Positions 32,378-59,342 of a stretch of DNA of 64,000 nt are shown here, in pieces. A program made the translations under genes and the position numbers. The stretch is taken from assembly GCA_902629585.1 (NCBI GenBank), contig CACORI010000001.1, positions 1 to 64,000 of the forward strand, written 5' to 3'. The first letter of the stretch is position 1; each line of letters starts with the position of its first letter. Origin of the DNA: an uncultured Pelagibacteraceae bacterium (GTDB taxonomy: Bacteria; Pseudomonadota; Alphaproteobacteria; Pelagibacterales; Pelagibacteraceae). The notes below the pieces were generated by a model that searched no databases, was not told the DNA's origin, and worked only from the letters and a program-made list of their open reading frames with translations.

Positions 32378-34063
32378 TTAAAATAAACCTTCTATTTCAC
32401 CTTTATTATTAAGCTTAATTGAGTCTGCAGCGGGAACTCTTGGTAAGCCAGGCATCGTCATAATAGCTCCACAAACAACAACTATAAACTCAGCACCAGA
32501 TGAAAGTCTTATTTCTCTGATTGGCAGCGCGTGACCAGTCGGAGCACCCTTTAAACTGGGATCAGTAGAAAAACTATATTGAGTTTTAGCAACACAAATA
32601 GGTAATTCGTCATATCCAGCTTCTTCAAAACTTTTGAGCTGATCTCTAATTTTAGTATCTGCTATAACCTCATCAGCTCTATAAATTTCTTTTGCGATTG
32701 TCTCTATTTTATTGAAAAGAGGTGTTTTACTTTCATATAAAAATTTAAATTTAGACTCATTTTTTTCACATAAATCCACAACATGAGCAGCAAGATCTTT
32801 CGTTCCCTCACCACCATTTGCCCAATGAGTACACAGACTAGCTTTAACTCCCAGATCATCACAAAAATCTATTAAAGCCTTAACTTCTTTATCGGTATCT
32901 TTAATAAAATGATTAACTGCTATTGCAACAGGTAATCCAAATTTTTTAACATTTTCAACATGCCTTTGAAGATTAACCAATCCTTTCTTAAGAGCATCAA
33001 CGTTTTCATTTTTTAAATCATCTTTAGCAACACCACCATGCATTTTTAATGCTCTTATAGTTGCAACTATTACTACACAGCTTGGTTTCAAATTTGATTT
33101 TCTGCATTTTATATCAAGAAACTTTTCAGCACCTAAATCTGCACCAAAGCCAGCTTCAGTAACCACATAGTCTGCAAGCTTAAGTCCTGTTTTTGTCGCA
33201 ATAACAGAGTTACATCCATGAGCAATATTTGCAAATGGACCTCCATGAATAATGGCAGGATTATTTTCTAAAGTTTGTGTCACATTAGGTCTAATTGCAT
33301 CTTTAAGTAAGACGGTCATAGGACCTTGTGCTTTTAAGTCCTTAGCGTAAATAGGTTTTTTTTCCCTAGTGTAAGCAACAGTAATGTTTCCAATTCTTTT
33401 TTCTAAATCTTCAAGATTATTAGCTAGACAAAAGATTGCCATTATCTCTGATGCGACAGTGATATCAAAACCATCTTCTCTAGGAAAACCATTTGCAACA
33501 CCACCTAAATTTATATTAATTGATCTAAGAGCTCGATCATTCATGTCTAAAACTCTTCTCCAAACAATTCTCCTTACGTCTATATTTAATTTATTTCCCC
33601 AATAGATATGATTATCAATTAACGCGGATAAAAGATTATGAGCTGATGTGATTGCATGAAAATCACCTGTAAAATGTAAATTAATTTGTTCCATTGGAAC
33701 TACTTGTGCATATCCACCACCTGCCGCACCGCCTTTCATTCCAAAAGAAGGACCTAAACTTGGCTCTCTTAAACAAACTATAGATTTTTTTCCTATTTTA
33801 TTTAATCCATCATTTAAACCAACAGAAGTTGTTGTTTTTCCTTCACCCGCTGGTGTTGGAGTTATTGCAGTTACTAATATCAATTTTCCATCAGGTTTAT
33901 CTTTTAATTTATCAAGATACTCCAAGTTAATTTTAGCAATATGTCTACCCATGGGACTGAATGCAGCACTTTCATCAGGAACTTCAACTTTTGACAATAT
34001 ATCATTGATTGGTTGCATTTTTGCTTCTCTTGCAATTTGGATGTCTGATTTTACTTCACTCAT
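32378..34063 (-). CDS. fhs: Formate-tetrahydrofolate ligase
   Basis: A 561-residue ATP-dependent enzyme joining formate and tetrahydrofolate to 10-formyl-THF, or releasing ATP and formate in reverse. The P-loop-like [14 protein letters not shown] (about residue 68-81), [18 protein letters not shown] and [16 protein letters not shown] are diagnostic. Length is normal. It is convergent with gpsA (2 bases) and divergent from soxB. It processes one-carbon units released by the demethylases around it. Confidence 0.97.
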
Positions 34064-34191: not shown

Positions 34192-35448
34192 ATGCAAAAA
34201 TATTCAATATTTAATTTAGTTAAAAATGCTTTTTCAAATCATGAGAATTGGGATTTAGCTTGGAAGGATCCAACTCCTAAAAAAGAATACGACGTAGTAA
34301 TTATTGGAGGTGGAGGCCATGGTCTAGCAACCGCATATTATCTGGCAAAAGAGCATAATATTACCAACGTGGCAATCATAGAAAAGGGCTGGATTGGTGG
34401 TGGAAATGTTGGACGTAATACAACAATAATTAGATCTAATTATATGTACGACGACAATGCTTTGTTTAGTGAGTTTGGAATGAATTTATGGAGAAAGATG
34501 AGTCAAGATTTAAATTATAATGTTATGTTTTCTCCAAGAGGAATTATAAATCTTGCCCACTCTGATGCGCAGATGAACATTTATGCAAGAAGAGGCAACT
34601 CAATGAGGCTCAATGGTATTGATGCTATTCTTCTCAATAGGGAGCAAGTTAAAGAAATAATTCCAATGGCAGATTTTTCAGAAAATGTACGGTTTCCAAT
34701 TTTTGGTGGATTAATGCAACCAAGTGCAGGAACCGCAAGACATGATGCAGTTGCTTGGGGTTATGCAAGACAAGCTGACTCGATGGGAGTCGATATAATT
34801 CAAAATTGTGAAGTTACAGGTTTTGATGTTTCAAGCGGAAAAATAAAAGGTGTTCGAACCTCAAGAGGTGATATTAGCGCTAAAAAAATAGGTCTATGTG
34901 TTGCTGGTAGTACAAATATTTTAGCAGAAAAACTAAACATGACTTTACCAATCGAAACTCATCTTCTTCAAGCATGTGTTTCAGAACCTGTTAAACCAGT
35001 TTTAGACAGAGTTGTAACTTTTGGAGCTGGACACTTTTATATTAGTCAATCAGACAAAGGTGAAATGGTTATGGGTGGAGATTTAGATGGATATAATAGT
35101 TACGCACAAAGAGGAAATCTTCCAACCCTTCAGCATGTTTTAACAGAAGGAATTGCAATGATGCCCTTTTTAAGCAAATTAAAAATGCTTAGAACTTGGG
35201 GTGGAATTATGGATATGTCAATGGATGGTTCTCCAATAATTGATAAGACACATATTGAAGGATTATATTTAAATTGTGGTTGGTGCTATGGTGGTTTTAA
35301 AGCAACTCCAGCATCAGGATGGACTTTTGCTCATACAATTGCACAAGATAGGGTTCATGAATTGAACTCTGGTTACAGTTTAAGCAGGTTCAATACAGGT
35401 CACTTACTTGATGAAAAGGGACTTGGGACTAAAACTTGGATTTCGTAA
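34192..35448 (+). CDS. soxB: Heterotetrameric sarcosine oxidase beta subunit
   Basis: A 418-residue flavoprotein with the FAD motif VVIIGGGGHGLATAYYLA, the SoxB signature GRNTTIIRSNY and TARHDAVAWGYAR, whose His matches the covalent FMN attachment site of the family. It oxidises the N-methyl group of sarcosine; a variant (MgdA) acts on N-methylglutamate. No Shine-Dalgarno is present and a TATTAT box lies close to the ATG, so the leader is very short. First of four genes in the sox order BDAG. Confidence 0.92.
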   Translation: MQKYSIFNLVKNAFSNHENWDLAWKDPTPKKEYDVVIIGGGGHGLATAYYLAKEHNITNVAIIEKGWIGGGNVGRNTTIIRSNYMYDDNALFSEFGMNLWRKMSQDLNYNVMFSPRGIINLAHSDAQMNIYARRGNSMRLNGIDAILLNREQVKEIIPMADFSENVRFPIFGGLMQPSAGTARHDAVAWGYARQADSMGVDIIQNCEVTGFDVSSGKIKGVRTSRGDISAKKIGLCVAGSTNILAEKLNMTLPIETHLLQACVSEPVKPVLDRVVTFGAGHFYISQSDKGEMVMGGDLDGYNSYAQRGNLPTLQHVLTEGIAMMPFLSKLKMLRTWGGIMDMSMDGSPIIDKTHIEGLYLNCGWCYGGFKATPASGWTFAHTIAQDRVHELNSGYSLSRFNTGHLLDEKGLGTKTWIS

Positions 35449-35718
35449 ATGTTGCATATTAAGTGCCCACATTGTGGAATGAGATCTCAAAATGAATTTT
35501 CTTACGGAGGAGATGCCACCATTAAAAGACCAGAGCTAAATAAAGATATATCAGATCAAGAGTGGAACAATTTTGTTTATAATAGAAAAAGTTTAAGAGG
35601 CAAACATTGGGAATTATGGCAACATTTATCAGGCTGTCGACAATGGATTAAAGTTGAGAGAGATACAGCTACACATGAAATTTTTAATACTCTTAAAGCT
35701 AATGAGGATATTTCTTAA
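35449..35718 (+). CDS. soxD: Sarcosine oxidase delta subunit
   Basis: An 89-residue zinc-binding subunit. Cys6, Cys9, His59 and Cys63 (CPHC and HLSGC) form the zinc site, at the same residue numbers I recall for the structurally known enzyme. It starts directly after soxB and overlaps the soxA start by one base. Confidence 0.95.
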   Translation: MLHIKCPHCGMRSQNEFSYGGDATIKRPELNKDISDQEWNNFVYNRKSLRGKHWELWQHLSGCRQWIKVERDTATHEIFNTLKANEDIS

Positions 35719-38714
35719 TGATACAAAGTTTTAGATTAGAAAATGTTGGACTTATTAATAGAAACAAAAAACTTTCATTTAAATTTAATGGCAAAACTTA
35801 TTATGGTTATGAAGGAGATACATTAGCTTCGGCATTACTAGCTAATGGAGTTCATCTTATTGGTAGAAGCTTTAAATATCATAGACCAAGAGGTTTTTTT
35901 GGAGCAGGTGTTGATGAACCTTATGCAATAGTTCAGTTATATAGAAATGGTGAGACAGAACCGAATATAAAAGCAACTGAGCAAGAACTTTTTGAGGGGT
36001 TAGTAGCAACTAGTGTAAATTGTTGGCCAAGTGTTAAATTTGATGTTGGAGCAATAAATAATTTCTTAAAAATATTTCTTCCTGCTGGATTTTATTACAA
36101 AACATTTATGTGGCCAAAAAGTTTTTGGTATAAAATTTATGAGCCATTTATTAGAAAGGCAGCAGGCCTTGGTGTTGCTTCAATTAAACATGATAAAGAA
36201 AGATACGAACATAAATATGAATATTGTGATTTATTAATAGCTGGCTCAGGACCATCAGGTTTGGCAAGTGCTTACGCAGCAGCAAAAAATGGTGCAAGAG
36301 TGATACTTGCTGAAGATAAGTCCAGATTTGGAGGAACTTTGCTAACAAGCGATGTAAATATTGGAAATAAATCAGGCAAAGAGTGGGCCGAGGGAGTTAT
36401 TGCTGAACTTAAAGAAATGCCTAACGTGACTGTAAAAAATAGATCACAGGTTTTTGGATATTACGATCATAACATGTTGGTGATGTCCGAAAGAGTTAGT
36501 GATCACCTTGCAACAACAAAAAAATTTCATCCAAAACAAAGACTTTGGTACATAAGAGCAAAAGAGGTTCTAATTTCCGCAGGATCGATAGAAAGACCGA
36601 TAGTTTTTGGGAATAATGATACACCAGGTGTGATGCTGTCATCAGCAGCAAAAGAGTATTTAAGAATTTATGGAGTATTAGTTGGAAAAAAACCACTTAT
36701 TTTTACAAATAATGATAGTGGCTATGAAACTGCTATTGATTTTAAAAAAAACGGTATTGATCCAATTATTCTAGATACAAGAAAAGACCCTCAATCTGAA
36801 ATAGTTGAAGAAGCAAAAGAATTAGGAATTAATATTAAATTTTCTTATGTAGTTGTGGCGGCGAAAGGTTATAAAAAAGTAAAATCAGCTGATATTGCGA
36901 AAATTTCAGATAATAAAGAAGATCTTGGGGTGATAGAAAATATCAATTGTGATTGTATATGTGTCTCTGGTTTTTGGACACCTACAATTCACTTAGCATC
37001 ACAATCAGGAAATAAAACAAAATTCAATGAAAATATAGATGCATTTGTTCCAGGAATATCAAAACAAAATGAAACAACTTTAGGTGCCGCAAATGGAGTT
37101 TATACATTGAATGAAACTTTAAAAAGTTCTTTTGAAACTGCTCATGCGTTATCAAAAAAAATAACAAATAATGATAATAAGATTTCATTTCCCAATGTTG
37201 TTGAAAAAAAATCTACAACACATGATAAATTTTGGTGTGTACCGTTACCAAAAGGAAAAAATTATAAACGATTTCTAGACTTTCAAAATGATGTTGCAGT
37301 CTCAGATATTGAAATAGCACTTAAAGAAGGTTATCGATCAATTGAACATGTAAAAAGATATACCACCCTTGGAATGGCAACTGACCAAGGCAAAACAAGT
37401 AATCTAAATGGTTTACAGTTAGTTTCTAAAATAGAAAATAAAGTTGTGCCAGCTGTAGGTCACACAACTTTTAGGCCTCCGTATAACCCAGTATCTATTG
37501 GTGCAATTGTTGGAAGAGAAGTTGGAAAGCACTCAAAACCAACAAGAAAATCTCCAATGCATAATTGGCATGAAAAAAATAATGCAGTTTTTGTTGATGC
37601 AGGTGTGTGGTTAAGACCTAGGTACTATAAAAAAGGAGATGAAAATTTATTTGAGGCATCAAAAAGAGAAGCAAAAAATGTAAGAACAAACGTTGGTGTT
37701 TGTGACGTAACTACGTTAGGTAAAATAGATATTAAAGGACCAGATGCAGGAGAATTGCTTAATAGAGTTTATACTAATGCATGGTTAAAATTACCAGTTG
37801 GTAAAGCCAGATATGGCGTGATGTTGAGAGAAGACGGAATAGTTATGGATGATGGAACAACTACTAGAATTTCAGAGAATCATTATCATATGACTACAAC
37901 TACTGCTCAAGCAGCAAATGTACTTTCTCACTTAGAATATTATTTACAACTAGTGTGGCCAGAATTAAATGTGAACGTAGTTTCTACTACGGAACAATGG
38001 GCAGGAGCTGCAATCGCAGGTCCAAAATCAAGAGATTTATTACAAAAATTATTTCCAAATAGTGATGTATCAAAAGAAGGATTACCTTTTATGGGTTACA
38101 TGGAAGGTGATTTATTTGGAGTTAAGGCCAGAATTTTTAGAATTTCATTTTCTGGCGAGCTTGCTTACGAAGTAAACGTTGAATCTGATAATGGAAATTT
38201 TATGTGGGAAAAAATTATTGAAGTTGGTCAAGCTTTTAAAATTCAACCATATGGAACTGAAGCATTATCCACTCTAAGAATAGAGATGGGACACGTTGCA
38301 GGTTCAGAACTTGATGGAAGAACAATACCTTATGACAATTCTCTTGAAGGACTAGTAAGCAAAAAGAAAGATTTTATAGGCAAAAGATCTTTAACTAAGG
38401 AAGCATTTACAGCCGAAGATAGACAAAAAGTTGTTGGTGTAGTTCCTTTAGATAAAAAGACAAGTATTCCAGAAGGATCTCATTTAGTAAAAGACTCAAA
38501 TGCACCATTACCTAATCCAAAATTAGGTTATATTTCAGCTTCGTGTTGGAGTGTTGAATATGATAATCCATTTTCCTTAGCAATATTGAAAGACGGAAAA
38601 AACATGATTGGAAAAAAACTATTTGTAATGTCTCCTCTCAAAAATAAAGTAATTCCAGTTGAGATAGTTTCCTCACACTATGTTGATCCAAAAGGCGAAA
38701 GGGTACGATCATGA
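35718..38714 (+). CDS. soxA: Sarcosine oxidase alpha subunit
   Basis: A 998-residue modular protein: an N-terminal 2Fe-2S-like beta domain (to about 110), an NAD-binding Rossmann domain (CDLLIAGSGPSGLASAYAAA, from about 170), a flavoprotein core, and a GcvT-type folate domain in the last 400 residues (SGELAYEVNVESDNG). It binds tetrahydrofolate so that the formaldehyde released becomes methylene-THF. ATGA-type coupling links it to soxG. The MgdC subunit of N-methylglutamate dehydrogenase has the same architecture. Confidence 0.93.
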   Translation: MIQSFRLENVGLINRNKKLSFKFNGKTYYGYEGDTLASALLANGVHLIGRSFKYHRPRGFFGAGVDEPYAIVQLYRNGETEPNIKATEQELFEGLVATSVNCWPSVKFDVGAINNFLKIFLPAGFYYKTFMWPKSFWYKIYEPFIRKAAGLGVASIKHDKERYEHKYEYCDLLIAGSGPSGLASAYAAAKNGARVILAEDKSRFGGTLLTSDVNIGNKSGKEWAEGVIAELKEMPNVTVKNRSQVFGYYDHNMLVMSERVSDHLATTKKFHPKQRLWYIRAKEVLISAGSIERPIVFGNNDTPGVMLSSAAKEYLRIYGVLVGKKPLIFTNNDSGYETAIDFKKNGIDPIILDTRKDPQSEIVEEAKELGINIKFSYVVVAAKGYKKVKSADIAKISDNKEDLGVIENINCDCICVSGFWTPTIHLASQSGNKTKFNENIDAFVPGISKQNETTLGAANGVYTLNETLKSSFETAHALSKKITNNDNKISFPNVVEKKSTTHDKFWCVPLPKGKNYKRFLDFQNDVAVSDIEIALKEGYRSIEHVKRYTTLGMATDQGKTSNLNGLQLVSKIENKVVPAVGHTTFRPPYNPVSIGAIVGREVGKHSKPTRKSPMHNWHEKNNAVFVDAGVWLRPRYYKKGDENLFEASKREAKNVRTNVGVCDVTTLGKIDIKGPDAGELLNRVYTNAWLKLPVGKARYGVMLREDGIVMDDGTTTRISENHYHMTTTTAQAANVLSHLEYYLQLVWPELNVNVVSTTEQWAGAAIAGPKSRDLLQKLFPNSDVSKEGLPFMGYMEGDLFGVKARIFRISFSGELAYEVNVESDNGNFMWEKIIEVGQAFKIQPYGTEALSTLRIEMGHVAGSELDGRTIPYDNSLEGLVSKKKDFIGKRSLTKEAFTAEDRQKVVGVVPLDKKTSIPEGSHLVKDSNAPLPNPKLGYISASCWSVEYDNPFSLAILKDGKNMIGKKLFVMSPLKNKVIPVEIVSSHYVDPKGERVRS

Positions 38715-39298
38715 GCATGATATCAGCATTAGCAAATGTCCATTTAAAAGGAAAATTTGGTGACTATGAAGGAAAAAATGAGAACAATCTTTTAAGAATC
38801 TCTGAGAAAAAAAACTTATTAATAGTTCAAATTGTCCAATATAAATCTTCTACTTTATCGTTGGAAAATATTGATATCGATGGTTTGAAATTAAAAGATG
38901 AGCCATTAAGCGTAATTAATAATAATGATACAAGAATTCTATGGAACGGACCCAAGAATTGGCTTTTAGTATCAACAAAAAAAGAATTACTTAAAAAAAT
39001 TTCTCAGAATTTTATAGAGACTGATTTTGCTTTAACAGATCTATCTCATTCAAGAGCTTTAATTGAAATAGAGGGGCGAAATGTAAAAGAAGTTTTAAAG
39101 AAAGGGTGTCCTTTTAATTTTAATTCTTTAGAAAAAAATAATTCAATAAATTCTACTTATAATGGAATAGCGCTCACTATTGATATGATAGATAATAATC
39201 CAGATAAAGTAAGAATATTCGCACTTAGAAGTTTTGGTGAGTCATTATATCATTCAATTACAGATGCGTCATTGGAGTTTGGTTTCAAATCAATATAA
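38711..39298 (+). CDS. soxG: Sarcosine oxidase gamma subunit
   Basis: A 195-residue small GcvT-fold subunit, quite divergent, with the family feature LTDLSHSRALIEIEG followed by VLKKGCPFNF. It packs against the folate domain of the alpha subunit and has no active site of its own. The start overlaps the soxA stop by 4 bases. Confidence 0.88.
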   Translation: MSMISALANVHLKGKFGDYEGKNENNLLRISEKKNLLIVQIVQYKSSTLSLENIDIDGLKLKDEPLSVINNNDTRILWNGPKNWLLVSTKKELLKKISQNFIETDFALTDLSHSRALIEIEGRNVKEVLKKGCPFNFNSLEKNNSINSTYNGIALTIDMIDNNPDKVRIFALRSFGESLYHSITDASLEFGFKSI

Positions 39299-44467: not shown

Positions 44468-45433
44468 ATGAATTATAAAATAGATAATCTTCAATATTGT
44501 AAGTGGTCAAGAGATATATTCAAAATTAATAGACAAGCAGGCTTAGATGCAGTCCATGTAACTGTTGTTTATCATGAGGATTATGATGAATTCTTAGGGG
44601 AATTGAAAAAATGGGAATTATTTTTTAAAGAAAATTCTGATCTAATATTTTTAGGAAAAAGTTTTAAAGATATTGAAAAAGCAAGAGAGGAAAATAAAAC
44701 GGCAATTTTTTTTGGCTTTCAAAACTGTTCTCCAATTGAAGATGACATAAATTTAGTTGAAAAAGTTCATGAACTTGGATGTCGTTTTATGCAATTGACG
44801 TATAATAATCAATCTTTACTGGCAACTGGTTGTTATGAAAAAATAGATAGTGGAGTGACAAATTTTGGAAGAGAGGTAATAAAAGAAATGAATAGGGTCG
44901 GTATTGTAATAGACATGTCTCACTCTGCAGAAAAAAGCACACTAGATGCTATCAATTTAAGTGAAAAACCAGTTGCAATTACTCACGCAAATCCAGCATT
45001 TTGGCACGCAGCAAAAAGGAATAAATCCAATGATTTGTTGAAAGAATTGTCAGATAGTGGTGGAATGTTAGGTCTTTCTTTATATCCGCACCACTTAAAA
45101 GATAATTCAAATTGCACATTAATGAGTTTTTGTGAAATGGTAGCAAAAACTGCGGACATAATGAATGTAAAACATATAGGTATTGGTTCAGATCTATGCT
45201 TGGATCAACCAGACTCGATTGTTGAATGGATGAGAAATGGAACATGGACTATAAATAAAAATTATGGTGAAGGATCAAAAAATAAACCAGGTTTTCCAAA
45301 ACAACCTCATTGGTTTAAAGATGCAAGAGGGTTTTTAAATTTAGATGAAGGTTTGAAAAAAATTGGTTTTTCTGGCGAGGAAATTAACGATATACTCGGT
45401 AACAATTGGTTTAATTTTTATAAGAATATTTGA
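44468..45433 (+). CDS. M19 renal-dipeptidase-like protein lacking the N-terminal HxD motif
   Basis: A 321-residue amidohydrolase-fold protein of peptidase family M19. Later motifs are present: QLTYNNQSLLATGCYE, GIVIDMSHSAEKSTLDA, PVAITHANP and HIGIGSDLCLD with the final Asp. The N-terminus, however, runs IDNLQYCKWSRDIFKINRQAG and has no DGHND-type His-x-Asp. From memory, this variant is found near dimethylglycine/betaine catabolic genes in other proteobacteria (for example the dgc region of Pseudomonas aeruginosa). True substrate unknown; a non-peptide amide is possible. First gene of a four-gene run. Confidence 0.8.
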   Translation: MNYKIDNLQYCKWSRDIFKINRQAGLDAVHVTVVYHEDYDEFLGELKKWELFFKENSDLIFLGKSFKDIEKAREENKTAIFFGFQNCSPIEDDINLVEKVHELGCRFMQLTYNNQSLLATGCYEKIDSGVTNFGREVIKEMNRVGIVIDMSHSAEKSTLDAINLSEKPVAITHANPAFWHAAKRNKSNDLLKELSDSGGMLGLSLYPHHLKDNSNCTLMSFCEMVAKTADIMNVKHIGIGSDLCLDQPDSIVEWMRNGTWTINKNYGEGSKNKPGFPKQPHWFKDARGFLNLDEGLKKIGFSGEEINDILGNNWFNFYKNI

Positions 45434-45434
45434 A

Positions 45435-47105
45435 ATGCAAATAAAATTAAGAAATCCGAATATAATAATGAAATTATCAAGACTTGGTTCATTTCATCAA
45501 TCTAAATTATCTTTTCTAAGAAGTTTCTTAGATGAGTTCAGAGATTGGGATTATAGTAACGATCTATTTGATTTAGATGAAAATGGATACGGGACAGCTA
45601 TTTACTCATTTAAAAAAAAAAACAGAGTTTATTCTTTAATTTGTTTTGCTAATAAAATTAACAATCACGAAAGATCTGATAGAGTTATTGCAACAAAATG
45701 GGATGCTGCATTTACATTGTATGATGGTGTTCCCACTAAAGAAGATATTGAAAGGTTAAAAAATGAGGTCCCAAAACAAGAGGTTGGAAGATTATCTTAC
45801 AAGGAACTTACATTATCAAGAGCTAATAAATCTTTAAGAGTTTTTGATCACGTGGTTGCAAGTTTAAGTGAGGGTAAACAGCCTGATTTAGATCTTCTAG
45901 GAAAAGTAGGATATCTTTATAGAACTACAGCTGTTTATGGTTCTGGTAAATTTGGACTAGCTGATCGATTTAGAATTAAAGATAGAGAGGAAATAAATGG
46001 TCCTTTTAGACTTGAGATGATGTTAGTTTACTTAGTAAGACAATTTACGTTTGATCAAGTTAATCACGTTGCAAAATTTAAAAACCCAAAAAAAGCAGTC
46101 AAATTAGATCCAGAAATTTGTAAAAGTTTAGGCATTGGTAATTCAACAGGACTAGGTATGGCACCATTTATTGTAAATCATCCAACACTTCTAAATAACT
46201 GGATTTTATGCAGAGAAAAGGCTTTGAAAAAAATAAGAGAAACTAAAAATGTTCAAAAAGATCAATATGATCTTTTTAAAAAAAGCTTAAAAAATTCTGT
46301 AAAAAATATAACAAGTTGGAACACAGAAAGTGAATATCAAAAGAAAAAGATTAATTCTTTACTTCAGAATGTAAAAAAAACATTAAATTTTTTAGAAACT
46401 AAATTTAGTTTCGATATTGAGTATCCATTTAATAAAATATATTTGTGGTTGGAAAAAGAAACATGTGATGAGTGTATTGAGTATGTTGTTTCCATAATGA
46501 TGGAACCTTTTGACGAAATAATAAAACCTTTAGTCAGCGAAATGAGCTCAGATGAGGAAAAATATTTTAATATTCCAACACAAAAAACGGTTGAGGATTT
46601 AAAAAATATAATTGAAAATAGATATACTGATATTTTAAAAATAGATTTTAATAAAAAAGAAAATATTAAAAATTTTTGGTTTATCTCAAGAAATAAGGAG
46701 GAACCAAGATATTCTAATAGATTTGAAGAGGCAGGCTCAGAACTTGAACAACCTTTAGCAATAGCTAGAGATATCAAAAAATTATATGAACAATTAAATT
46801 TTTTCAAAAATAATTTAAAAATTGACAAATTTTTATCTAAACATCCCTCGTCGAGACATGTTGTAAGAAGAGCATTTATAATTGACAAATTTCCTTATGC
46901 CGAGATTCAAGATAACACCATTGCTGAGAATGTCGTACCTGTTGACATGTTAAGATTAAAATTATCTTTTTTTGGTGCATTAAAGTTTGACCCAAGATCA
47001 GATAAGTGGCTCAGAATTTGTATGTTTCAAGGGGCACCATTACCAAATGAGTTAAAAGATTATGATCAACAATGGGTTTATAATTTTAGCAATGAAATCA
47101 TTTAG
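45435..47105 (+). CDS. Large uncharacterised protein in the M19-DUF3726 cluster
   Basis: The ATG at 45435, one base after the M19-like stop, is preferred to the tracked TTG at 45363; it gives 556 residues. No known catalytic motif was recognised. The N-terminal half has well-ordered stretches (SRLGSFHQSKLSFLRSFL; ERSDRVIATKWDAAFTL; YRTTAVYGSGKFGLADRF; GNSTGLGMAPFIVNHP). The second half is more Lys-rich and helical. There is no signal peptide or membrane span, so it should be cytoplasmic. GNSTGLGMAPF looks like a nucleotide or phosphate loop but this is only impression. Confidence 0.75.
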   Translation: MQIKLRNPNIIMKLSRLGSFHQSKLSFLRSFLDEFRDWDYSNDLFDLDENGYGTAIYSFKKKNRVYSLICFANKINNHERSDRVIATKWDAAFTLYDGVPTKEDIERLKNEVPKQEVGRLSYKELTLSRANKSLRVFDHVVASLSEGKQPDLDLLGKVGYLYRTTAVYGSGKFGLADRFRIKDREEINGPFRLEMMLVYLVRQFTFDQVNHVAKFKNPKKAVKLDPEICKSLGIGNSTGLGMAPFIVNHPTLLNNWILCREKALKKIRETKNVQKDQYDLFKKSLKNSVKNITSWNTESEYQKKKINSLLQNVKKTLNFLETKFSFDIEYPFNKIYLWLEKETCDECIEYVVSIMMEPFDEIIKPLVSEMSSDEEKYFNIPTQKTVEDLKNIIENRYTDILKIDFNKKENIKNFWFISRNKEEPRYSNRFEEAGSELEQPLAIARDIKKLYEQLNFFKNNLKIDKFLSKHPSSRHVVRRAFIIDKFPYAEIQDNTIAENVVPVDMLRLKLSFFGALKFDPRSDKWLRICMFQGAPLPNELKDYDQQWVYNFSNEII

Positions 47106-47703
47106 TGAAATAGAAACAATTTCAAAACGAGCGAGTAAAGCAATAGGTTTTTCCTGGGGAATAGCAGAGGAAGTGGGTAAGGGTATTAAAATATTAGAAT
47201 TATTCGGTCTAGCTGGAATTAGAAATTTGAATGAATATTTTAATTTAAAAGAAAACAACCAATATGAAAATTTAAATTTGATAAATGAGAAAAATCAATC
47301 TAAAAAATATCCATATTGTCCAATCATATTAGGAGTAAGTTTTTTAGACCAAGTAAATAATCTTGAAAAATTTAAAAAAATTCAATTACAAAAAGTTGCA
47401 TTTCCCCTTTTAGTTTTACCTTTCCTCAGTAGAAGCTCAGCAGAAATTGGAAAAAAAATTCTTTATAAGTTCGATGAATACAGTTTTTTATTAAATTTAA
47501 ATGTTAATATTTCCTCACAAAGTTTCTCAAACGAATGTCCATCAAATGCAGATAATATAGAAATTAGTTTTATAGACAATAAAGATAATTTCAGGGAACA
47601 AGATTGGAAAAGCTTATATAAATTATCTGAAAAAACCTTTGTAAAGGAGACTGATAGCTTAAAAATAGGAGCCGCAGGCGCAGGACTCACTGATAATGAT
47701 TAA
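47092..47703 (+). CDS. DUF3726-like protein
   Basis: The ATG at 47092 (MKSFSEIETISKRASKAIG) is chosen over the tracked 47062; it overlaps the previous gene by 14 bases and gives 203 residues. The N-terminus (FSEIETISKRASKAIGFSWGIAEEVGKG) and the C-terminal GAAGAGLTDND match the shape of DUF3726 as I remember it. It has no known activity. The short glycine-rich tail with terminal acidic residues is conspicuous. Coupled translation with both neighbours suggests a complex. Confidence 0.7.
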   Translation: MKSFSEIETISKRASKAIGFSWGIAEEVGKGIKILELFGLAGIRNLNEYFNLKENNQYENLNLINEKNQSKKYPYCPIILGVSFLDQVNNLEKFKKIQLQKVAFPLLVLPFLSRSSAEIGKKILYKFDEYSFLLNLNVNISSQSFSNECPSNADNIEISFIDNKDNFREQDWKSLYKLSEKTFVKETDSLKIGAAGAGLTDND

Positions 47704-47866
47704 ATATAGAAATAAATTAGAAAATGAGGATAAAGATTTAGGGGACTTAGATAATATATGTGATGAGTGTAAAGATGAAGATGAAAGTGTGCTACAAAAT
47801 TTAATACTTACGGGTTTTAAAATTTGTAAATCTTGCAGAATATCTAAGACAATATTCCCACTTTAA
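47696..47866 (+). CDS. Small CxxC-CxxC zinc-ribbon-like protein
   Basis: A 56-residue frame too short for the ORF track. It starts at ATG 47696, overlapping the DUF3726 stop by 8 bases, and stops at TAA 47864-47866. Two CxxC pairs (ICDECKDE and ICKSCRIS, Cys 22, 25, 44, 47) suggest a zinc or iron knuckle. The overlap spacing and cysteine pattern make a chance frame unlikely. It would be the fourth gene of the M19-like cluster. Its last bases overlap the converging membrane-protein gene. Confidence 0.65.
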   Translation: MIKYRNKLENEDKDLGDLDNICDECKDEDESVLQNLILTGFKICKSCRISKTIFPL

Positions 47867-48585: not shown

Positions 48586-49944
48586 TTAACCTTTTACCAC
48601 TTCCCTTGTATTTGCGTTGAAAGACTCTTTAAATGGAATATCCACAACAACAGCATCCACTGGTGTACCAGGAGTATCTGAATATTTTTCTGGAAGATGA
48701 ACTTTAAATTTAGTTCCAACCTTACCTTTAGGAAATCCATTTGGGTTTAAAGTTCCATCAAATGGAACATATCCCATTGCAATATTTGTTTTCTTCTCAG
48801 GATGCCACCATGGTGAAGTGAGGAATCCCACAGGATCTCCTCCATTTTCAGGAGATACTAACCAAAAGTCGGGTGCATAGTCATCAATTGGTTTGCCGCC
48901 TAACTCCATTCCAACTAATTGAAGTTTATATGGTTTTTGACCAGCTTTAATGTTTGCTTTCATTTTCTCTAGAGCAGCCTTACCTACATAATCAGCTTTT
49001 TTATCCCACTCACCTTTGCCAGATAAAGAAACTTGATAACCTAAATTACATTGGAAAGGATTATGTTGCTGATCCATGTCTTGGCCCCAAGAAAGAATAC
49101 CTGCTTGAATTCTTCTATGGTGTGCAGGTGCAATAACCATCAAATTATGTTTTTTTCCTGCTGCTAATACCGCATTCCACATATCCTCAGCATACAAAGT
49201 TGCATTTCTTAAGTATATTTCATAACCAGCTTCTCCGGAAAAACCTGATTGTGAAATTACAACATCTCTTCCTCCAACTTTAGCCTCAGCTAAACCATAG
49301 AAAGGCATATTATCAAAATCAACTTGATCTCCACAAAGATCTTTCATTAAAGCTTTTGATTTAGGACCTTGAATTTGAACTGGACATGCATCTATTTCTT
49401 CAATGGTACAATTAAATCTTCCATCTGCATTAACACCTTGTAAATACAATCCAATATCAGAGTCAGATAATGAAAACCAAAACTCATCTTTAGAAATTCT
49501 TAAAAGAATTGGATCATTTAAAACTCCACCGTAAGCATTACATAAGATAACGTATCTTGCTCTCATCGGAGAAATTTTTGTTGCATCTCTGGTTATAACA
49601 TAGTCGGTAAATTTTTCTGCGTCTGGACCTTTAACTCTTATTTGTCTTTCAACAGCAACATTCCACATTGTTACATGATTTACGATGGCATCATATTCAA
49701 CCATTGCTCCACCATCCTCAGGTTTTACATATCCTCTTGGATGATAAATTCGATTGTAGACTGTCGCTCTCCAACAGCCTGCTTGCATAGATAAATGCCA
49801 GTAAGGTGATTTTCTCACTCTTGTTGAAATTAACATTTCAACTTTAGTTGGTCCACTTTGTCTTAAATTGTATGGTACTTCTCTGTCCGATTGATCAACA
49901 GAAGTAACATGTTTCACTTTAGTATAGTCAACTTCTTTAGACAT
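48586..49944 (-). CDS. GcvT-fold folate-dependent demethylase of the DmdA/LigM type, substrate unknown
   Basis: A 452-residue GcvT-family protein. The N-terminus (STRVRKSPYWHL) and NVAVERQIRVKGPDAEKFTDYVITRD match the DmdA/LigM branch rather than GcvT itself, and SQSGFSGEAGYEIYL is the folate-side motif. It is about 80 residues longer than DMSP demethylase DmdA and nearer the size of LigM/DesA, the aryl O-demethylases. It overlaps the following MetF-like gene by 8 bases (that gene is upstream in transcription), so the methyl or methylene-THF made here would be handled by it. An osmolyte methyl donor is likely; the exact one is not readable. Confidence 0.78.
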   Translation of the reverse strand: MSKEVDYTKVKHVTSVDQSDREVPYNLRQSGPTKVEMLISTRVRKSPYWHLSMQAGCWRATVYNRIYHPRGYVKPEDGGAMVEYDAIVNHVTMWNVAVERQIRVKGPDAEKFTDYVITRDATKISPMRARYVILCNAYGGVLNDPILLRISKDEFWFSLSDSDIGLYLQGVNADGRFNCTIEEIDACPVQIQGPKSKALMKDLCGDQVDFDNMPFYGLAEAKVGGRDVVISQSGFSGEAGYEIYLRNATLYAEDMWNAVLAAGKKHNLMVIAPAHHRRIQAGILSWGQDMDQQHNPFQCNLGYQVSLSGKGEWDKKADYVGKAALEKMKANIKAGQKPYKLQLVGMELGGKPIDDYAPDFWLVSPENGGDPVGFLTSPWWHPEKKTNIAMGYVPFDGTLNPNGFPKGKVGTKFKVHLPEKYSDTPGTPVDAVVVDIPFKESFNANTREVVKG

Positions 49945-50665
49945 AACTATTCTCCTTCAACCACTTGTTAGTTTCCTTCAAGCCGCCGAATGTATAAATG
50001 TGGAAGTTATCAGTATGCGATTTAACTTTCCCAATTAAATCATTAGGGTCTTTAGGTTTCAATAAATCTAGTGCCTTAGTAAAATTAGATTTAAGAAAAT
50101 TAAGGGAATTTTTCGCTCCTACAATATTAGCAAATTTAATTAAGCTCGATATTTTTAGTGGCCCAGTAATTCCCACATGAACTGGTATGCTTTGCTTAGA
50201 AATAAAATCTATAATAGGCTGAGGATCAAGTAACCATTGTGTTACAATATAATCAGCATAAGGCTTTTTATCTATCATAGCTTTTTCTAAATCTGAGTCG
50301 GATATATCAGGACTCCCCTCTGGGTGTCCAGCAATTCCTATCTTCATTTTTTCAAAATAACCTGTTTCTAAAAGTTGAAATGAACTATCAAATTTCCCTA
50401 AAGGTTCTCTGCCACCCCCTATTATCAAAGCTTGTTTGACACCTCCATCTTTACACATATTAACATAGTCTTTTAGCTCCTTTTCATTATGCATTGATCT
50501 AGCAGGAAAATGAGGAACAGGGTTAAAACCTTTTTTTACCAACTCAACTGCTTGTTGAGCAGTTTCTTTATAATCCCCACCAGGAAGCATAGTGATGTAA
50601 ACATCATTCACAGAGGGAACTGTGTTCAAGTCTGTATTAGGACTGATTTCTAGTGAAAAATTCAT
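49937..50665 (-). CDS. Short methylenetetrahydrofolate reductase-like protein
   Basis: A 242-residue MetF-fold protein: TMLPGGDYKETAQQAVELVKKGFNPVPHFPARSM matches the folate-side barrel strand, then IIGGGREPLGKFDSS, IGIAGHPEGSPDI and IVTQWLLD. It is shorter than MetF (about 300) and misses some N-terminal residues. The protein likely interconverts methyl- and methylene-THF. It is translated just before the DmdA/LigM-like gene, as ligM and metF are linked in sphingomonads. Confidence 0.8.
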   Translation of the reverse strand: MNFSLEISPNTDLNTVPSVNDVYITMLPGGDYKETAQQAVELVKKGFNPVPHFPARSMHNEKELKDYVNMCKDGGVKQALIIGGGREPLGKFDSSFQLLETGYFEKMKIGIAGHPEGSPDISDSDLEKAMIDKKPYADYIVTQWLLDPQPIIDFISKQSIPVHVGITGPLKISSLIKFANIVGAKNSLNFLKSNFTKALDLLKPKDPNDLIGKVKSHTDNFHIYTFGGLKETNKWLKENSYV

Positions 50666-50768: not shown

Positions 50769-51962
50769 GTGGGCAAAAAACAAAAATTCAAAAATATTAC
50801 AGAAATAATAGACAGTAAAAAATTACTTGCTGTAAAAAAGCCAATTGACGAGGCAAATGGCCTTCCAAATGAATGCTATATCAACGAAGATTATTCGTTT
50901 TACGAAAGAGAAAAAGTATTTTTTAATAAGTGGACTGTGATTGGCGTTGGAAGCTCAATACCCAAATCTGGAGACAGCATATCATACAATCTGTTAGGGA
51001 TACCGTTGCTTATAATTAGAGATAAAAGTATGAAGATTCGCGTGTTTCATAATGTGTGTAGTCACAGGGGACACAAGCTTATAGAAAAATCTTGTAACTT
51101 GAAAAATGTAATTAGATGCCCTTATCACTCTTGGTCTTATGATTTTGAAGGCAATCTAGTAGCGACACCCCACATAGGGGGACTTAACATACATACCTCA
51201 AAAAATTTTGATAAAAGTAAAAATAAATTGAAAAGCGTAAGGACCAAAATTTGGATGGATATTATTTTTGTTAATCTGAATTCAAATGAGATTGATTTCG
51301 ATGAGTATATATCACCACTAGAACAAAGATGGAAAAAGTTTATTACTAAGGATGATCATAATTTAATAGTTCATTCAAATGACTATGGTTATTTTTGTTT
51401 AAATATTAATAGTAATTGGAAATTTGCGATTGAAAATTATTGTGAAAGTTATCATTTACCAACTATTCATCCAGAATTAAATAAAGTTTCAAACATAAAT
51501 GATCATTATCATATTCAAGGTTTGCCTAATAGATTTGCCGGCCAAGGAACAAAAAAATATGATCAACCAATGATTGGTAATAAAAAATTTGACACTTTTT
51601 CTAATTGGGAAAAAAATAGATTAAAAAATGCAGAATATGTTGCTTTATTTCCCAATGTAATGATTGGATTACATGTAGACTTGTTTTATGTATTTTGGCT
51701 TGAACCACTTGGAATAAATAAAACTAAAGAGCATATGCAAATATATTACGTTGGTAATGATAGTGCTAATGGAGAAGATTTAAAAGAATTGAGACAAGAG
51801 AACTCAAGATTTTGGAAAAAAGTTATGTTAGAAGATGTAGGTGCAATTGAAAGTATGCAAAAAGGAAGATGTTCTCCTTTTTATAATGGTGGAAGTTTTT
51901 CCTCTATTATGGATCAACCAACACATCAATTTCATAAATGGGTTGTTGAAAGTCTAATTTGA
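50769..51962 (+). CDS. Rieske non-heme iron oxygenase, alpha-subunit type
   Basis: A 397-residue protein with a Rieske 2Fe-2S site (C97, H99, C117, H120; CSHRGH and CPYHSW) and a mononuclear iron site (ENYCESYHLPTIHPEL, with H229 and H234). This is the architecture of choline/glycine betaine/carnitine-type monooxygenases and ring-hydroxylating dioxygenases. The context favours a quaternary ammonium substrate, but no reductase partner is in the window. The GTG start of the track is uncertain: in-frame ATGs at 50754 and 50748 also exist in my reading. Confidence 0.85.
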   Translation: MGKKQKFKNITEIIDSKKLLAVKKPIDEANGLPNECYINEDYSFYEREKVFFNKWTVIGVGSSIPKSGDSISYNLLGIPLLIIRDKSMKIRVFHNVCSHRGHKLIEKSCNLKNVIRCPYHSWSYDFEGNLVATPHIGGLNIHTSKNFDKSKNKLKSVRTKIWMDIIFVNLNSNEIDFDEYISPLEQRWKKFITKDDHNLIVHSNDYGYFCLNINSNWKFAIENYCESYHLPTIHPELNKVSNINDHYHIQGLPNRFAGQGTKKYDQPMIGNKKFDTFSNWEKNRLKNAEYVALFPNVMIGLHVDLFYVFWLEPLGINKTKEHMQIYYVGNDSANGEDLKELRQENSRFWKKVMLEDVGAIESMQKGRCSPFYNGGSFSSIMDQPTHQFHKWVVESLI

Positions 51963-51963
51963 A

Positions 51964-52371
51964 ATGAAAATAATTCTTATAATGGGTTTACCAGGATCTG
52001 GGAAAACAACTTTGGCATCTCATTTAGTTCCTTTGTTAAAAGCTAAATGGCTTAATGCTGACGAGGTAAGAAAAGAGGCTGATGACTGGGATTTTTCACC
52101 TGAGGGAAGAACCAGACAAGCAAAAAGAATGTGGAGCAAAGCATTAGAATTAAAGAACCAAGGTTTTCATGTTGTTGCAGATTTTGTTTGCCCAACTCCC
52201 GCAGCTAGATCACTGTTTCCCGCTGATTACATTATTTGGGTAGATACAATTAAAGAAGGTAGATTTGATGATACAAATAAGATGTTTGTAAAACCTGATA
52301 AGTATAACTTTCATGTTACCACACAAGATGCTAAAAATTGGGCACCAAAAATATTTAAGGAGATAGATTAA
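51964..52371 (+). CDS. P-loop kinase, adenylylsulfate-kinase-like
   Basis: A 135-residue protein with Walker A GLPGSGKTT at residue 8-16, then LNADEVRKEADDWDFSPEGRTRQAKRM, typical of APS-kinase-like small kinases. It is shorter than CysC (about 200) and lacks some of its C-terminal part. It starts 1 base after the Rieske gene and overlaps the next gene by one base. A role in activating a small molecule by phosphorylation is inferred. Confidence 0.7.
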   Translation: MKIILIMGLPGSGKTTLASHLVPLLKAKWLNADEVRKEADDWDFSPEGRTRQAKRMWSKALELKNQGFHVVADFVCPTPAARSLFPADYIIWVDTIKEGRFDDTNKMFVKPDKYNFHVTTQDAKNWAPKIFKEID

Positions 52372-52745
52372 TGTCTTATAAATGGGATAATAAAAAACCA
52401 ACTGCACAGATGTTAGGTAGATGGCAACCATTTCATGAAGGTCATTACACTCTATTTAAAGAGATAATAAAAAAAACAGGTCAAGTATGTATTCAAATTA
52501 GAGATGTGCAAGGTGTTGATGATAATCCTTTTGATTTTGAAACAGTAAAAAAAAAAATCGAAGAAAGACTTAACCCAGAATTTGAGGGTCGTTTTAAAAT
52601 CATTCTTGTTCCAAATATAACCAACATTTGTTATGGAAGAGGTGTCGGATACAAAATTGAAGAAATTATATTACCAGAGGAAGTGCAAAAAATTTCAGCT
52701 ACAAAAATAAGAGCTAAAATGAGAGAAGAAGGTAAACTTAAATAA
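52371..52745 (+). CDS. Small HxGH-type nucleotidyltransferase
   Basis: A 124-residue nucleotidyltransferase with the motif GRWQPFHEGHYTLF (HxGH) and the C-terminal ISATKIR, both conserved in NadM/TagD/CoaD-like cytidylyl- or adenylyltransferases. It is shorter than most of these (about 140-170). It is fused by overlap to the P-loop kinase, so the two probably act in sequence on one substrate. Confidence 0.75.
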   Translation: MSYKWDNKKPTAQMLGRWQPFHEGHYTLFKEIIKKTGQVCIQIRDVQGVDDNPFDFETVKKKIEERLNPEFEGRFKIILVPNITNICYGRGVGYKIEEIILPEEVQKISATKIRAKMREEGKLK

Positions 52746-52751
52746 TTCTTG

Positions 52752-53525
52752 ATGAACATAAAGACCATTAAGCAGGGCAAAGATATTGTCAGAGTAATTA
52801 TAAATGAGCCAAAAACATACAACTCATTATCAACAAATAATCTTATTGATTTAATTAAAATTTTCAAAAAACTTGATTTAGATAAAACCGTAAAAGTAAT
52901 AATCTTGGAGGGAGCAGGAAAAGGCTTTAGCGCAGGACACAATTTAAATGAGGTGAAAAATTTAAAAAAAAAAGAAAAATATCAAAAATTATTTAATCTT
53001 TGTTCAAAGCTTATGCTTCAAATTGTTGAGGGTAGAAAACCAGTTATCGCAAAAGTTCATGGAGCTGCGTATGCTGCTGGTTGTCAATTAGTAGCCAGCT
53101 GTGACCTGGCTTACTGTTCTAAGGATGCATTATTTGCAACACCAGGTGTAAACATAGGATTATTTTGTAGCACTCCAATGGTTGCGGTAAGTAGAAAGAT
53201 TAATAGAAAACCAATGATGAAAATGTTGCTTACAGGAGATCCAATAAATGCGAGTTATGCAAAGGAGATAGGATTGATAAATAATTTTTATTTAAAATCT
53301 AAGTTAGATAGAGAAGTTTTAAGGGTAGCAAGAAAGATTGCATCAAAATCAAATATTACAATAAAAATTGGCAAACAAGCATTTTATAAACAATTAGAAA
53401 TGCCTTTAAGAAAAGCATACTCTTATACAAGTAAAATGATGACCCTAAATATGATGGCAATGGATGCCAAAGAGGGAATTTCAGCATTTTTAGAAAAAAG
53501 AAAACCGAAATGGAAAAATAAATGA
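52752..53525 (+). CDS. Enoyl-CoA hydratase/isomerase family protein
   Basis: The ATG at 52752 is chosen over the tracked TTG at 52749; 257 residues. Crotonase fold with the oxyanion-hole segments GKGFSAGHNLNEV and KVHGAAYAAGCQLVASCDL. The usual catalytic Glu of hydratases lies in a region that here reads ATPGVNIGLFCST, so the reaction may differ from simple hydration. It overlaps the next small gene (ATGA). Confidence 0.85.
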   Translation: MNIKTIKQGKDIVRVIINEPKTYNSLSTNNLIDLIKIFKKLDLDKTVKVIILEGAGKGFSAGHNLNEVKNLKKKEKYQKLFNLCSKLMLQIVEGRKPVIAKVHGAAYAAGCQLVASCDLAYCSKDALFATPGVNIGLFCSTPMVAVSRKINRKPMMKMLLTGDPINASYAKEIGLINNFYLKSKLDREVLRVARKIASKSNITIKIGKQAFYKQLEMPLRKAYSYTSKMMTLNMMAMDAKEGISAFLEKRKPKWKNK

Positions 53526-53710
53526 ATTTAAAAAATTTATTAATCATAATTTTTATAATAATAGGATTAATTGTGGTTTTAAACTTTAGAGATCACAACT
53601 TTAAAAGAGCAATTGATGCTTGTGTAGCTGGAAGTCAAAAGCTTGAGAAACCAATGACAATAGATGAAGCTAAAAAGTTTTGTGAAAAAAAAATTATGAA
53701 CAAAGATTAG
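53522..53710 (+). CDS. Small membrane-anchored protein
   Basis: A 62-residue protein with one N-terminal hydrophobic span (LLIIIFIIIGLIVVLNF) and a charged exterior tail containing two Cys (DACVAGSQ and KFCEKK). It overlaps the enoyl-CoA hydratase gene by 4 bases. It is not recognised. The Cys pair could be disulfide-bonded if the tail is periplasmic. Confidence 0.6.
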   Translation: MNLKNLLIIIFIIIGLIVVLNFRDHNFKRAIDACVAGSQKLEKPMTIDEAKKFCEKKIMNKD

Positions 53711-53715
53711 ATTTA

Positions 53716-54120
53716 ATGACTAACACAAAGGAAATTTTAACAACATCTACTAATATAGCTTTAGTTGGAGCCAGCAAAGATTTAACTAAAACTTCATCTG
53801 TTGTAATGAAATATTTACAAAAATATGGTTATAAAGTTTTTCCTGTAAATCCAAATATGAAGGGAGAAAGAATTTTAGGAGAAAATGTATACGGAAAGAT
53901 TTCAGAAATTAAAGATAAAATTGATATTGTTGATGTGTTTAGACCATCAAATGAAGCTATTGAAATTGCTAAAGAAGCTGTCATTGTAGGTGCAAAGGTA
54001 CTGTGGTTACAATTAAAAATAAAAAATGATGAAGCTAGAAAAATAGCAGAGGCTAATAATATATTATATATTGAAGATAAATGTACAAAAATTGAAATTG
54101 AAAAATTTATTAATAAATGA
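53716..54120 (+). CDS. CoA-binding (YccU-like) protein
   Basis: A 134-residue Rossmann-fold protein with NIALVGASKDLTKTSSVVMKYLQKYGY at the N-terminus and PVNPNMKGERILG, matching the CoA_binding_2 family. It may bind CoA or a nucleotide; no catalytic motif was seen. It overlaps the following quinone-reductase-like gene by 4 bases. Confidence 0.85.
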   Translation: MTNTKEILTTSTNIALVGASKDLTKTSSVVMKYLQKYGYKVFPVNPNMKGERILGENVYGKISEIKDKIDIVDVFRPSNEAIEIAKEAVIVGAKVLWLQLKIKNDEARKIAEANNILYIEDKCTKIEIEKFINK

Positions 54121-54686
54121 AAAAAATTTTTATTGTTTATGGTCATTACAATGAAAAATCCTTTAATGCAGCAATAAGAGATACTTTTAAAGAGACTGTA
54201 GAGAAAAATGGTCACTATGTTGATATTGTTGATCTTTACAAAGAAAAATTTGATCCAGTTTTTTCTGGAGAAGAACCAGATGAGAAAGTTCTAGACCATA
54301 GAAAAAGAATAGAAAAATCAGATGCAATAGTTTTAATTGCCCCCATATGGAATTTTAGAATGCCAGCTATCGTTGAAGGATGGGTGGATAAAGTTTTAGC
54401 TCCACCTTGGGCATTTAAATTTAAAAAAATTTTTGGAAATTATGGTTACCCCATAGGAAATCTTAAGGGAAAAAAAGCTGTTGTTTTTTGCACATATGGC
54501 TCTCCACAATTCGCTGTAAGAACATTTTTTCTTAATATGCCGACAAAAAGGCTAAGGAGGGGGGTATTCAACATATGCGGCATAACGGATGTTATATATC
54601 GAAGATACTTTGCTGTACCATTCGTAGAAGATTATAAAAGAAAAAAATTTTTAGAAGATGTTAAAAAAACAGCAAATAATATTTAA
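54117..54686 (+). CDS. Flavodoxin-fold NAD(P)H quinone reductase
   Basis: A 189-residue protein of the MdaB/YwrO/KefF family. The N-terminal KKIFIVYGHYNEKSFN and APIWNFRMPAIVEGWVDKVLAPPWAFKF are typical FMN or FAD contact motifs. It reduces quinones by two electrons to protect against redox cycling. It is in a run of four overlapping genes. Confidence 0.85.
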   Translation: MKKIFIVYGHYNEKSFNAAIRDTFKETVEKNGHYVDIVDLYKEKFDPVFSGEEPDEKVLDHRKRIEKSDAIVLIAPIWNFRMPAIVEGWVDKVLAPPWAFKFKKIFGNYGYPIGNLKGKKAVVFCTYGSPQFAVRTFFLNMPTKRLRRGVFNICGITDVIYRRYFAVPFVEDYKRKKFLEDVKKTANNI

Positions 54687-55131
54687 TATTCTAGCAATTT
54701 TTCTTTTCTCAATAACAATTTCTAATGCAGAACTTATAAAGCCAAAAAGCGATATTAAGCCAAGTAAAGTCGTAGAAATTCAATTATTAGGCCTTCAAAA
54801 AAACGATTTAAATTATAAAGATAGCGGAATAGAACAAACATGGAATTTTGCACACCCAAGCAATAAAAAAGTCACAGGTCCTTTGAATAATTTTAAGAGG
54901 ATGTTAAAAGGAGATTCTTACAGGATGATGATTGATCACTTGAGTCATACCATTACCCAGCTAGGAACTGGAGAAAACTGGGCTCAATTTGAAGTAATAA
55001 TACTAGATAAAGAAAAAATTTATCATAAATTTAACTGGCAAGTGGAAAAATATACTATAGAAGGCCCTTTAAAAGATTGTTGGTTAACAACTATGGTATC
55101 TAATCCCATACCGTTAGGTAGCTCAATTTGA
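54658..55131 (+). CDS. Exported DUF4864-like protein
   Basis: A 157-residue protein with a signal peptide (FNILAIFLFSITISNA) and the DUF4864-like core (KVVEIQLLGLQKNDLNYKDSGIEQTWNFAHPSN; GPLNNFKRMLKG). The start overlaps the preceding gene by 29 bases in another frame; the clear signal peptide supports it. Function unknown. Confidence 0.75.
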   Translation: MLKKQQIIFNILAIFLFSITISNAELIKPKSDIKPSKVVEIQLLGLQKNDLNYKDSGIEQTWNFAHPSNKKVTGPLNNFKRMLKGDSYRMMIDHLSHTITQLGTGENWAQFEVIILDKEKIYHKFNWQVEKYTIEGPLKDCWLTTMVSNPIPLGSSI

Positions 55132-55186
55132 ATTCAAGGTTACAATTTTGTTTCGAAATGAATAAAAATTTAGTAGGAATCCCTTA

Positions 55187-59321: not shown

Positions 59322-59342
59322 AAAAATCTGTAAGAAATTATT

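Follow-up and report, generated by a model that had tools for sequence, protein, structure and literature searches.

A conserved gene trio of a Pelagibacteraceae genome as the probable core of a pathway degrading homarine to N-methylglutamate

We analysed a 64,000-nucleotide stretch of DNA from an uncultured Pelagibacteraceae (SAR11) bacterium (contig CACORI010000001.1 of assembly GCA_902629585.1; hereafter the window), in which four adjoining genes encode an M19-like protein (M19L), a 556-amino-acid (aa) protein (P556), a DUF3726 protein and a 56-aa CxxC-CxxC peptide (sp56). The original prediction, made from the sequence, had taken these genes for one translation unit and for an undescribed system that might act on a methylated amino acid derivative. 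We found that the first three form a real and widely conserved catabolic core, probably of a pathway through which marine and soil bacteria degrade a pyridinium carboxylate bearing an N-methyl group to N-methylglutamate; homarine (N-methylpicolinate) is the most likely substrate. The trio likely belongs to a known pathway, one of whose enzyme families is unexplained.

The four open reading frames (ORFs) were present at the positions given in Table 1, and the spacing behind the claim of a single translation unit was reproduced, with a gap of 1 base between M19L and P556 and overlaps of 14 bases (P556 and DUF3726) and 8 bases (DUF3726 and sp56). Because this close spacing was preserved over 79 Pelagibacteraceae loci, and the 8-base overlap was kept in 71 of the 75 loci that had the peptide, the cluster is confirmed as real and not a chance grouping. 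Among 289 alphaproteobacterial genomes, DUF3726 was found in 35, and in the 33 loci that were read it was adjoined by P556 in every case (33/33) and by M19L in 31, one of these a fragment. The same adjacency was seen in genomes of 4–6 Mb and in one record labelled betaproteobacterial (Roseateles), so the possibility raised with the original prediction, that these genes would rarely be together in other genomes, was not borne out. Within the order, 40 of 61 relatives, most of them incomplete, had P556, which was flanked by M19L and DUF3726 where loci were read; across the Pseudomonadota P556 occurred in 27 of 299 genomes, mainly of one family (probably Rhodobacteraceae), as well as in three families outside the class.

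In other genomes the trio lies within a fuller operon. At eight named plasmid loci (Phaeobacter, Aminobacter, Roseateles, Tritonibacter, Aliiroseovarius, Pararhizobium, Ruegeria TM1040 and Rhodobacteraceae M382) we observed one block consisting of a divergent LysR gene, an aldehyde dehydrogenase gene, M19L, P556, DUF3726 and an Ldh gene, and a Shinella locus was a similar ninth; M19L was annotated there as 'membrane dipeptidase' and P556 as 'hypothetical'. A BCCT or an OpuA-type betaine ATP-binding cassette (ABC) transporter stood beside the block in all nine. The operon of Ruegeria TM1040 is found at TM1040_RS02320-RS02345, and Phaeobacter inhibens DSM 17395 carries P556 in two copies. The operon aldehyde dehydrogenase was closest to models of 2,5-dioxovalerate/alpha-ketoglutarate semialdehyde (KGSA) dehydrogenases, below their cut-offs, and the operon Ldh was closest to the DpkA-type reductase 1wtj (1.1e-57, versus 8.9e-39 for the next), a family that makes N-methyl amino acids (PMC6110843). 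Of the 32 loci other than that of the window, 11 had an orthologue of the aldehyde dehydrogenase (at least 54% identity over at least 470 aa) and 15 had one of Ldh (at least 47% identity over at least 300 aa).

Four of the nine operons (Phaeobacter, Aliiroseovarius, Roseateles and Ruegeria TM1040) were also adjoined by soxBDAG-type genes and an AraC/GlxA-type regulator, and the Roseateles locus additionally had purU and folD. We placed sox copies of such loci in trees in which N-methylglutamate dehydrogenase (mgd) was anchored by operons flanked by gmaS-mgsABC (Paracoccus, which also has dmm, and two of Rhizobium), while the sarcosine oxidase side had one anchor operon (Paraburkholderia) assigned by its neighbours. 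The sox copies beside the operon in Phaeobacter, Aliiroseovarius and Roseateles, and at locus G114 of the genome sample, fell in the mgd clade, the linkage to mgd expected of a homarine operon, and Ruegeria TM1040 has the same layout. Mgd takes part in homarine catabolism (PMC13390433, citing Ferrer-Gonzalez et al. 2026, Nat Microbiol 11:1531). The suspected connection to methylated amino acid derivatives was thus supported by the betaine transporters and the N-methylglutamate dehydrogenase genes that stand beside the trio elsewhere. In Pseudosulfitobacter, an mgd-clade operon (L207:3294-12490) lay beside genes for N-formylglutamate deformylase and formimidoylglutamate deiminase, possibly another source of N-methylglutamate.

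We propose the following order of steps. P556 and DUF3726 would open the aromatic ring between C5 and C6, by analogy with trigonelline, to give an N-formyl-N-methyl-enamine with an aldehyde at C5, which the 2,5-dioxovalerate-dehydrogenase-like enzyme would oxidise. M19L would then hydrolyse the N-formyl (amide) bond with release of formate, the DpkA-like Ldh_2 imine reductase would yield N-methylglutamate, and Mgd (soxBDAG-type) would convert this to glutamate and methylene-tetrahydrofolate; Pelagibacter would have to rely on enzymes encoded elsewhere for the oxidation of the aldehyde and the reduction of the imine. As the conversion of homarine to N-methylglutamate would require loss of C6 and oxidation of C5, a route through an N-formyl aldehyde appears to be the simplest. 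TgnAB is thought unlikely to open the homarine ring (Heal et al., PMC8269262), so another ring-opening enzyme would be needed. We propose P556 and DUF3726 for this step because they are the operon's only proteins without assigned chemistry.

In the trigonelline route, ring opening is followed by the action of an aldehyde dehydrogenase and then of an amide hydrolase. That system (tgn; Perchat et al. 2018, as cited in PMC8269262) likewise acts on an N-methylpyridinium carboxylate and opens its ring. It differs from the trio loci in its luciferase-like TgnA/TgnB, for which no luciferase-like gene was annotated at the named loci, in that the hydrolase here has an M19 fold, and in that the proposed end product here is N-methylglutamate, as opposed to succinate semialdehyde. 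On another contig of the window's own genome (L211:6315-10337), genes for a luciferase-like monooxygenase, a PF06684 protein, an alpha/beta hydrolase and an aldehyde dehydrogenase stand in a row that resembles a trigonelline-type ring-opening cluster and holds the genome's closest paralogue of the operon aldehyde dehydrogenase.

A study of 2026 is reported to have described homABCDER, an operon of Rhodobacterales, SAR11 and SAR116 that leads to N-methylglutamate and glutamate and to which the present operon may correspond gene for gene. That operon is reported to have five genes and a regulator, and our consensus operon likewise has five enzyme-type genes and LysR, is linked to mgd, and occurs in Rhodobacterales, SAR11 and probably SAR116. 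In the SAR11 window, by comparison, three of the five stand together; a SAR11-specific peptide is joined to them, and neither a regulator nor a transporter adjoins them. Given the resemblance of the fuller operon to homABCDER, the system is probably not the undescribed one that had been supposed. The new details are the losses of HxD and of the bridging Glu from M19L, the shortened fold and tail of DUF3726, and the peptide.

Table 1. Features of the cluster and its neighbourhood in the window
Feature	Position	Strand	Basis or remark
M19L (M19-like protein, 321 aa)	44468..45433	+	amidohydrolase fold, PA5396 (PDB 2i5g) clade; Pfam M19 1e-70
P556 (556 aa)	45435..47105	+	no family above cut-off, no PDB match by profile
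DUF3726 protein (203 aa)	47092..47703	+	Pfam 3.3e-19; shortened Ldh_2 fold by AlphaFold2 and fold search
sp56 (56-aa CxxC-CxxC peptide)	47696..47866	+	Pelagibacteraceae-specific; no family
soxBDAG-type operon, putative N-methylglutamate dehydrogenase	34192..39298	+	tree placement
Formate-tetrahydrofolate ligase	32378..34063	-	Pfam FTHFS 1.2e-270

The claim that the M19-like protein lacks its first metal-binding motif was upheld, as the match of M19L to Peptidase_M19 began at profile position 42, beyond the N-terminal HxD, and the protein has IDNLQYCKW where the metal-binding His-x-Asp of M19 is expected. The bridging Glu of the two-metal site is also absent (Gln85, conserved in the clade, aligns with the Glu of 3id7), and Tyr112 occupies the position of the substrate His in the same alignment. 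M19L retains the two metal-site His residues of later strands (His152 and His173) and the catalytic Asp242, all conserved. Its best solved relative (4.9e-56) was 2i5g, an amidohydrolase of the PA5396 clade which we take to be from P. aeruginosa, and that clade has the same losses, with HxD gone and Gln in place of the bridging Glu. Conserved in the M19L clade, and absent both from 2i5g and from a divergent second type of M19L described below, are His30, His36, His208 and His209; because the second type lacks them, these residues probably set substrate specificity rather than take part in the catalysis that the two types share. Among the residues found in both are Glu37, Gln85, Asn86, Tyr112, His152, His173, Asn175 and Asp242 (the two-type comparison's own numbering is one higher than these M19L numbers). 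M19L may be a re-wired amidohydrolase that serves as the N-formyl/amide hydrolase of the pathway.

The DUF3726 protein matched its family (PF12525) at 69 bits against a cut-off of 22.1, and its start at 47092 was favoured over a longer ORF from 47062 by 42 Pelagibacteraceae orthologues, all of which have ATG there and are 202–204 aa long. A fold search with its AlphaFold2 (AF2) model (predicted local distance difference test score, pLDDT, 86) returned Ldh_2 family proteins (malate, lactate and ureidoglycolate dehydrogenases) as all of the first 19 PDB matches, with E values of 0.01–0.14, probabilities of 0.95–1.00 and template modelling (TM) scores of 0.41–0.47. At the sequence level, the window protein gave no Ldh_2 (PF02615) match reaching the cut-off, its profile search against PDB sequences gave no match, and profile alignment of DUF3726 with Ldh gave no support for homology (probability 2.5%). 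Proteins at the same operon position did match Pfam Ldh_2 below the cut-off (Natrinema, 4.8e-9; Variovorax, 0.005). From the fold search and these distant positional equivalents, we conclude that DUF3726 is, as modelled, a shortened Ldh_2 fold. Ldh_2 (SESAS-fold) reductases such as DpkA are the only family among the confident fold matches and are about 340 aa long, whereas DUF3726 has about 200 aa and its own C-terminal tail. The last ten residues of this tail (GAGAGLxDND; GAGAGLTDND in the window protein) are conserved across most of the class in the alignment and were modelled with low confidence in the monomer, as would be expected of a segment that docks into a partner.

P556 matched no Pfam-type family at curated cut-offs and had no match in a profile search against PDB sequences. 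This agrees with the earlier remark that the large protein has no assigned family, and the concern that it might belong to a known housekeeping family was not substantiated. An AlphaFold2 model from 43 Pelagibacteraceae sequences (pLDDT 58) was too poor for a fold search. Residues that P556 of the homarine type shares with the divergent type included many Arg, two His (211 and 249) and several acidic residues, and no Cys (the numbering of this comparison is offset by 11). One or two stops were reported in P556 of many relatives (L003, L010, L011, L018-L022 and L024-L031); since the open frames are about 550–563 aa, the stops probably sit near the ends of the matches and the genes are probably not broken. 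As the invariant partner of DUF3726, P556 would be the ring-opening component.

A more specific reading, which we put forward tentatively and hold to be somewhat less probable than not, is that P556 and DUF3726 constitute a new class of two-subunit enzyme that opens N-heterocyclic rings and has a fold unrecognised among solved proteins. DUF3726 would then be a shortened fold of the NADPH-reductase kind that completes the active site of P556 with its conserved C-terminal tail, and the M19 hydrolase would have been re-wired. The module would have been re-paired for other substrates in rhizobia and betaproteobacteria, and would be M19-free in a haloarchaeon. The divergent second type was found in Sinorhizobium meliloti pSymB, Variovorax, Alloyangia and Neorhizobium (loci L181, L183, L197, L198 and L199), where a P556 that is 28–31% identical precedes a DUF3726-like protein and an M19 protein. 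By annotation, its neighbours were an IclR regulator at all of these loci, an ABC transporter at most, and RidA, an aminotransferase or GabT at several. The archaeon Natrinema (L182) has P556 and an Ldh_2-like partner with a BCCT transporter, an aldehyde dehydrogenase and a dihydrodipicolinate synthase (DHDPS)-family protein, and no M19 gene. That one type is paired with RidA and the other with an imine reductase would agree with an imine or enamine as the product of the module.

In the window, the soxBDAG-type operon lies 5.2 kb from the cluster. The same genome has a second soxBDAG operon on another contig (L213:7288-12381), which joined the anchor for sarcosine oxidase with support of 0.998 and 1.0. 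The window copy lay between the mgd and sarcosine oxidase groups; it is likely to be mgd. Sun et al. 2011 (PMC3160333) left unclear which of the SAR11 soxBDAG operons is N-methylglutamate dehydrogenase, and the window neighbourhood, with fhs, the soxBDAG operon and a GcvT-like gene beside a methylenetetrahydrofolate reductase (MTHFR)-like gene, appears to correspond to the HTCC1062 region of that study. The formate-tetrahydrofolate ligase is a possible sink for the released one-carbon unit.

Several observations weigh against the proposed pathway. In the window, the sox operon falls outside the anchored mgd clade, and most SAR11 genomes of the sister family carry the trio with only a sarcosine-oxidase-type sox copy, so mgd is not obligatory. 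The nearest Pelagibacter proteins to the operon aldehyde dehydrogenase and Ldh are paralogues of 38% and 37% identity, respectively, with no close orthologues, so the SAR11 pathway would need substitutes or be partial. The divergent module has other partners (IclR, RidA and aminotransferase) and is thus not tied to one substrate. Co-occurrence of Ldh and mgd across SAR11 was not decisive, the genomes being incomplete and the genes close together.

We consider it unlikely, if the best of the alternatives, that the trio acts on another N-heterocyclic betaine or amino acid derivative (trigonelline, proline betaine, hydroxyproline betaine or pipecolate betaine), with mgd serving a different N-methyl amino acid. 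In its favour, transporters of the betaine class lack specificity, the Phaeobacter operon has next to it a Rieske/PDR-VanB cluster of betaine-demethylase type, the window itself has a GbcA-like Rieske gene whose start lies about 3 kb from the cluster, and the module, as noted, takes other partners elsewhere. The route from proline betaine, however, leads to proline and needs no 2,5-dioxovalerate-type dehydrogenase plus mgd. Opening of trigonelline, for its part, uses the TgnA/TgnB oxygenase (PMC8269262), absent from the annotations as described above.

It is much less probable that these are accessory genes of dimethylglycine or glycine betaine catabolism, as in the PA5396 clade. Both the relationship of M19L to 2i5g and the position of pepD and a hypothetical gene before dgcAB in Vibrio and Pseudomonas (PMC12093977) speak for such a role, but no dgcB/etf block occurs at annotated type-1 loci, an NADH:flavin oxidoreductase within 9 kb being seen in Shinella alone, and the M19L clade has the four His residues of its own that 2i5g lacks. 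We found dgcAB beside the M19 gene neither at annotated type-1 loci nor among the window neighbours scanned; a search of the window's own genome for DUF3483 (DgcB) gave no match and was uninformative, as its control also matched in no genome. The PA5396-type M19 protein beside dgcAB shares the HxD-less clade of M19L but has different operon partners. In the earlier suggestion that this M19 clade is found near dimethylglycine and betaine genes, the dimethylglycine part belongs to the sister clade (PA5396 type, 2i5g; PMC12093977). Although SAR11 genomes are tightly packed and close spacing alone says little, it is scarcely credible that unrelated small genes of a streamlined genome have come together here by chance; this is refuted for the trio by its adjacency across the class, 4–6 Mb genomes included, and may hold at most for the 56-aa peptide.

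SAR11 bacteria are the most abundant heterotrophs of the surface ocean, and the homarine pathway, if correct, would tie them to the homarine pool through a conserved gene block. It would leave one defined biochemical question, what P556 and DUF3726 do, and would help to assign N-methylglutamate dehydrogenase to one of the two soxBDAG operons of SAR11. Homarine was reported to make up as much as 3% of surface-ocean particulate carbon (PMC8269262); according to a 2023 correction, its concentrations had been overstated owing to an impure standard (PMC10134881).

The peptide sp56, which had been counted as a fourth partner, was added in SAR11 and does not belong to the core. It was present in 75 of the 79 Pelagibacteraceae loci, with its start codon inside the tail codons of DUF3726, and a pattern scan of sister-family, probable HIMB59, probable SAR116 and Rhodobacterales loci found no similar small ORF. 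Its CxxC-CxxC pattern suggests that it may carry a metal.

An Rfam search of the window found no RNA elements. Downstream of the cluster, at 48586-50665, a GcvT/DmdA-like aminomethyltransferase (452 aa) overlaps a short MTHFR-like protein (242 aa), corresponding to SAR11_1265/1264. The region 50769-60962, possibly a further methyl/betaine catabolic block, encodes a GbcA-like Rieske oxygenase, enoyl-CoA hydratase, CoA-binding and flavodoxin-fold proteins, an 810-aa dimethylglycine-dehydrogenase-like protein, electron transfer flavoprotein (ETF) subunits and a FixC-like protein. With a match to Trimethylamine N-oxide demethylase at 14266-16605 (1077.8 bits, cut-off 1100), the window thus holds several methylamine/betaine genes.

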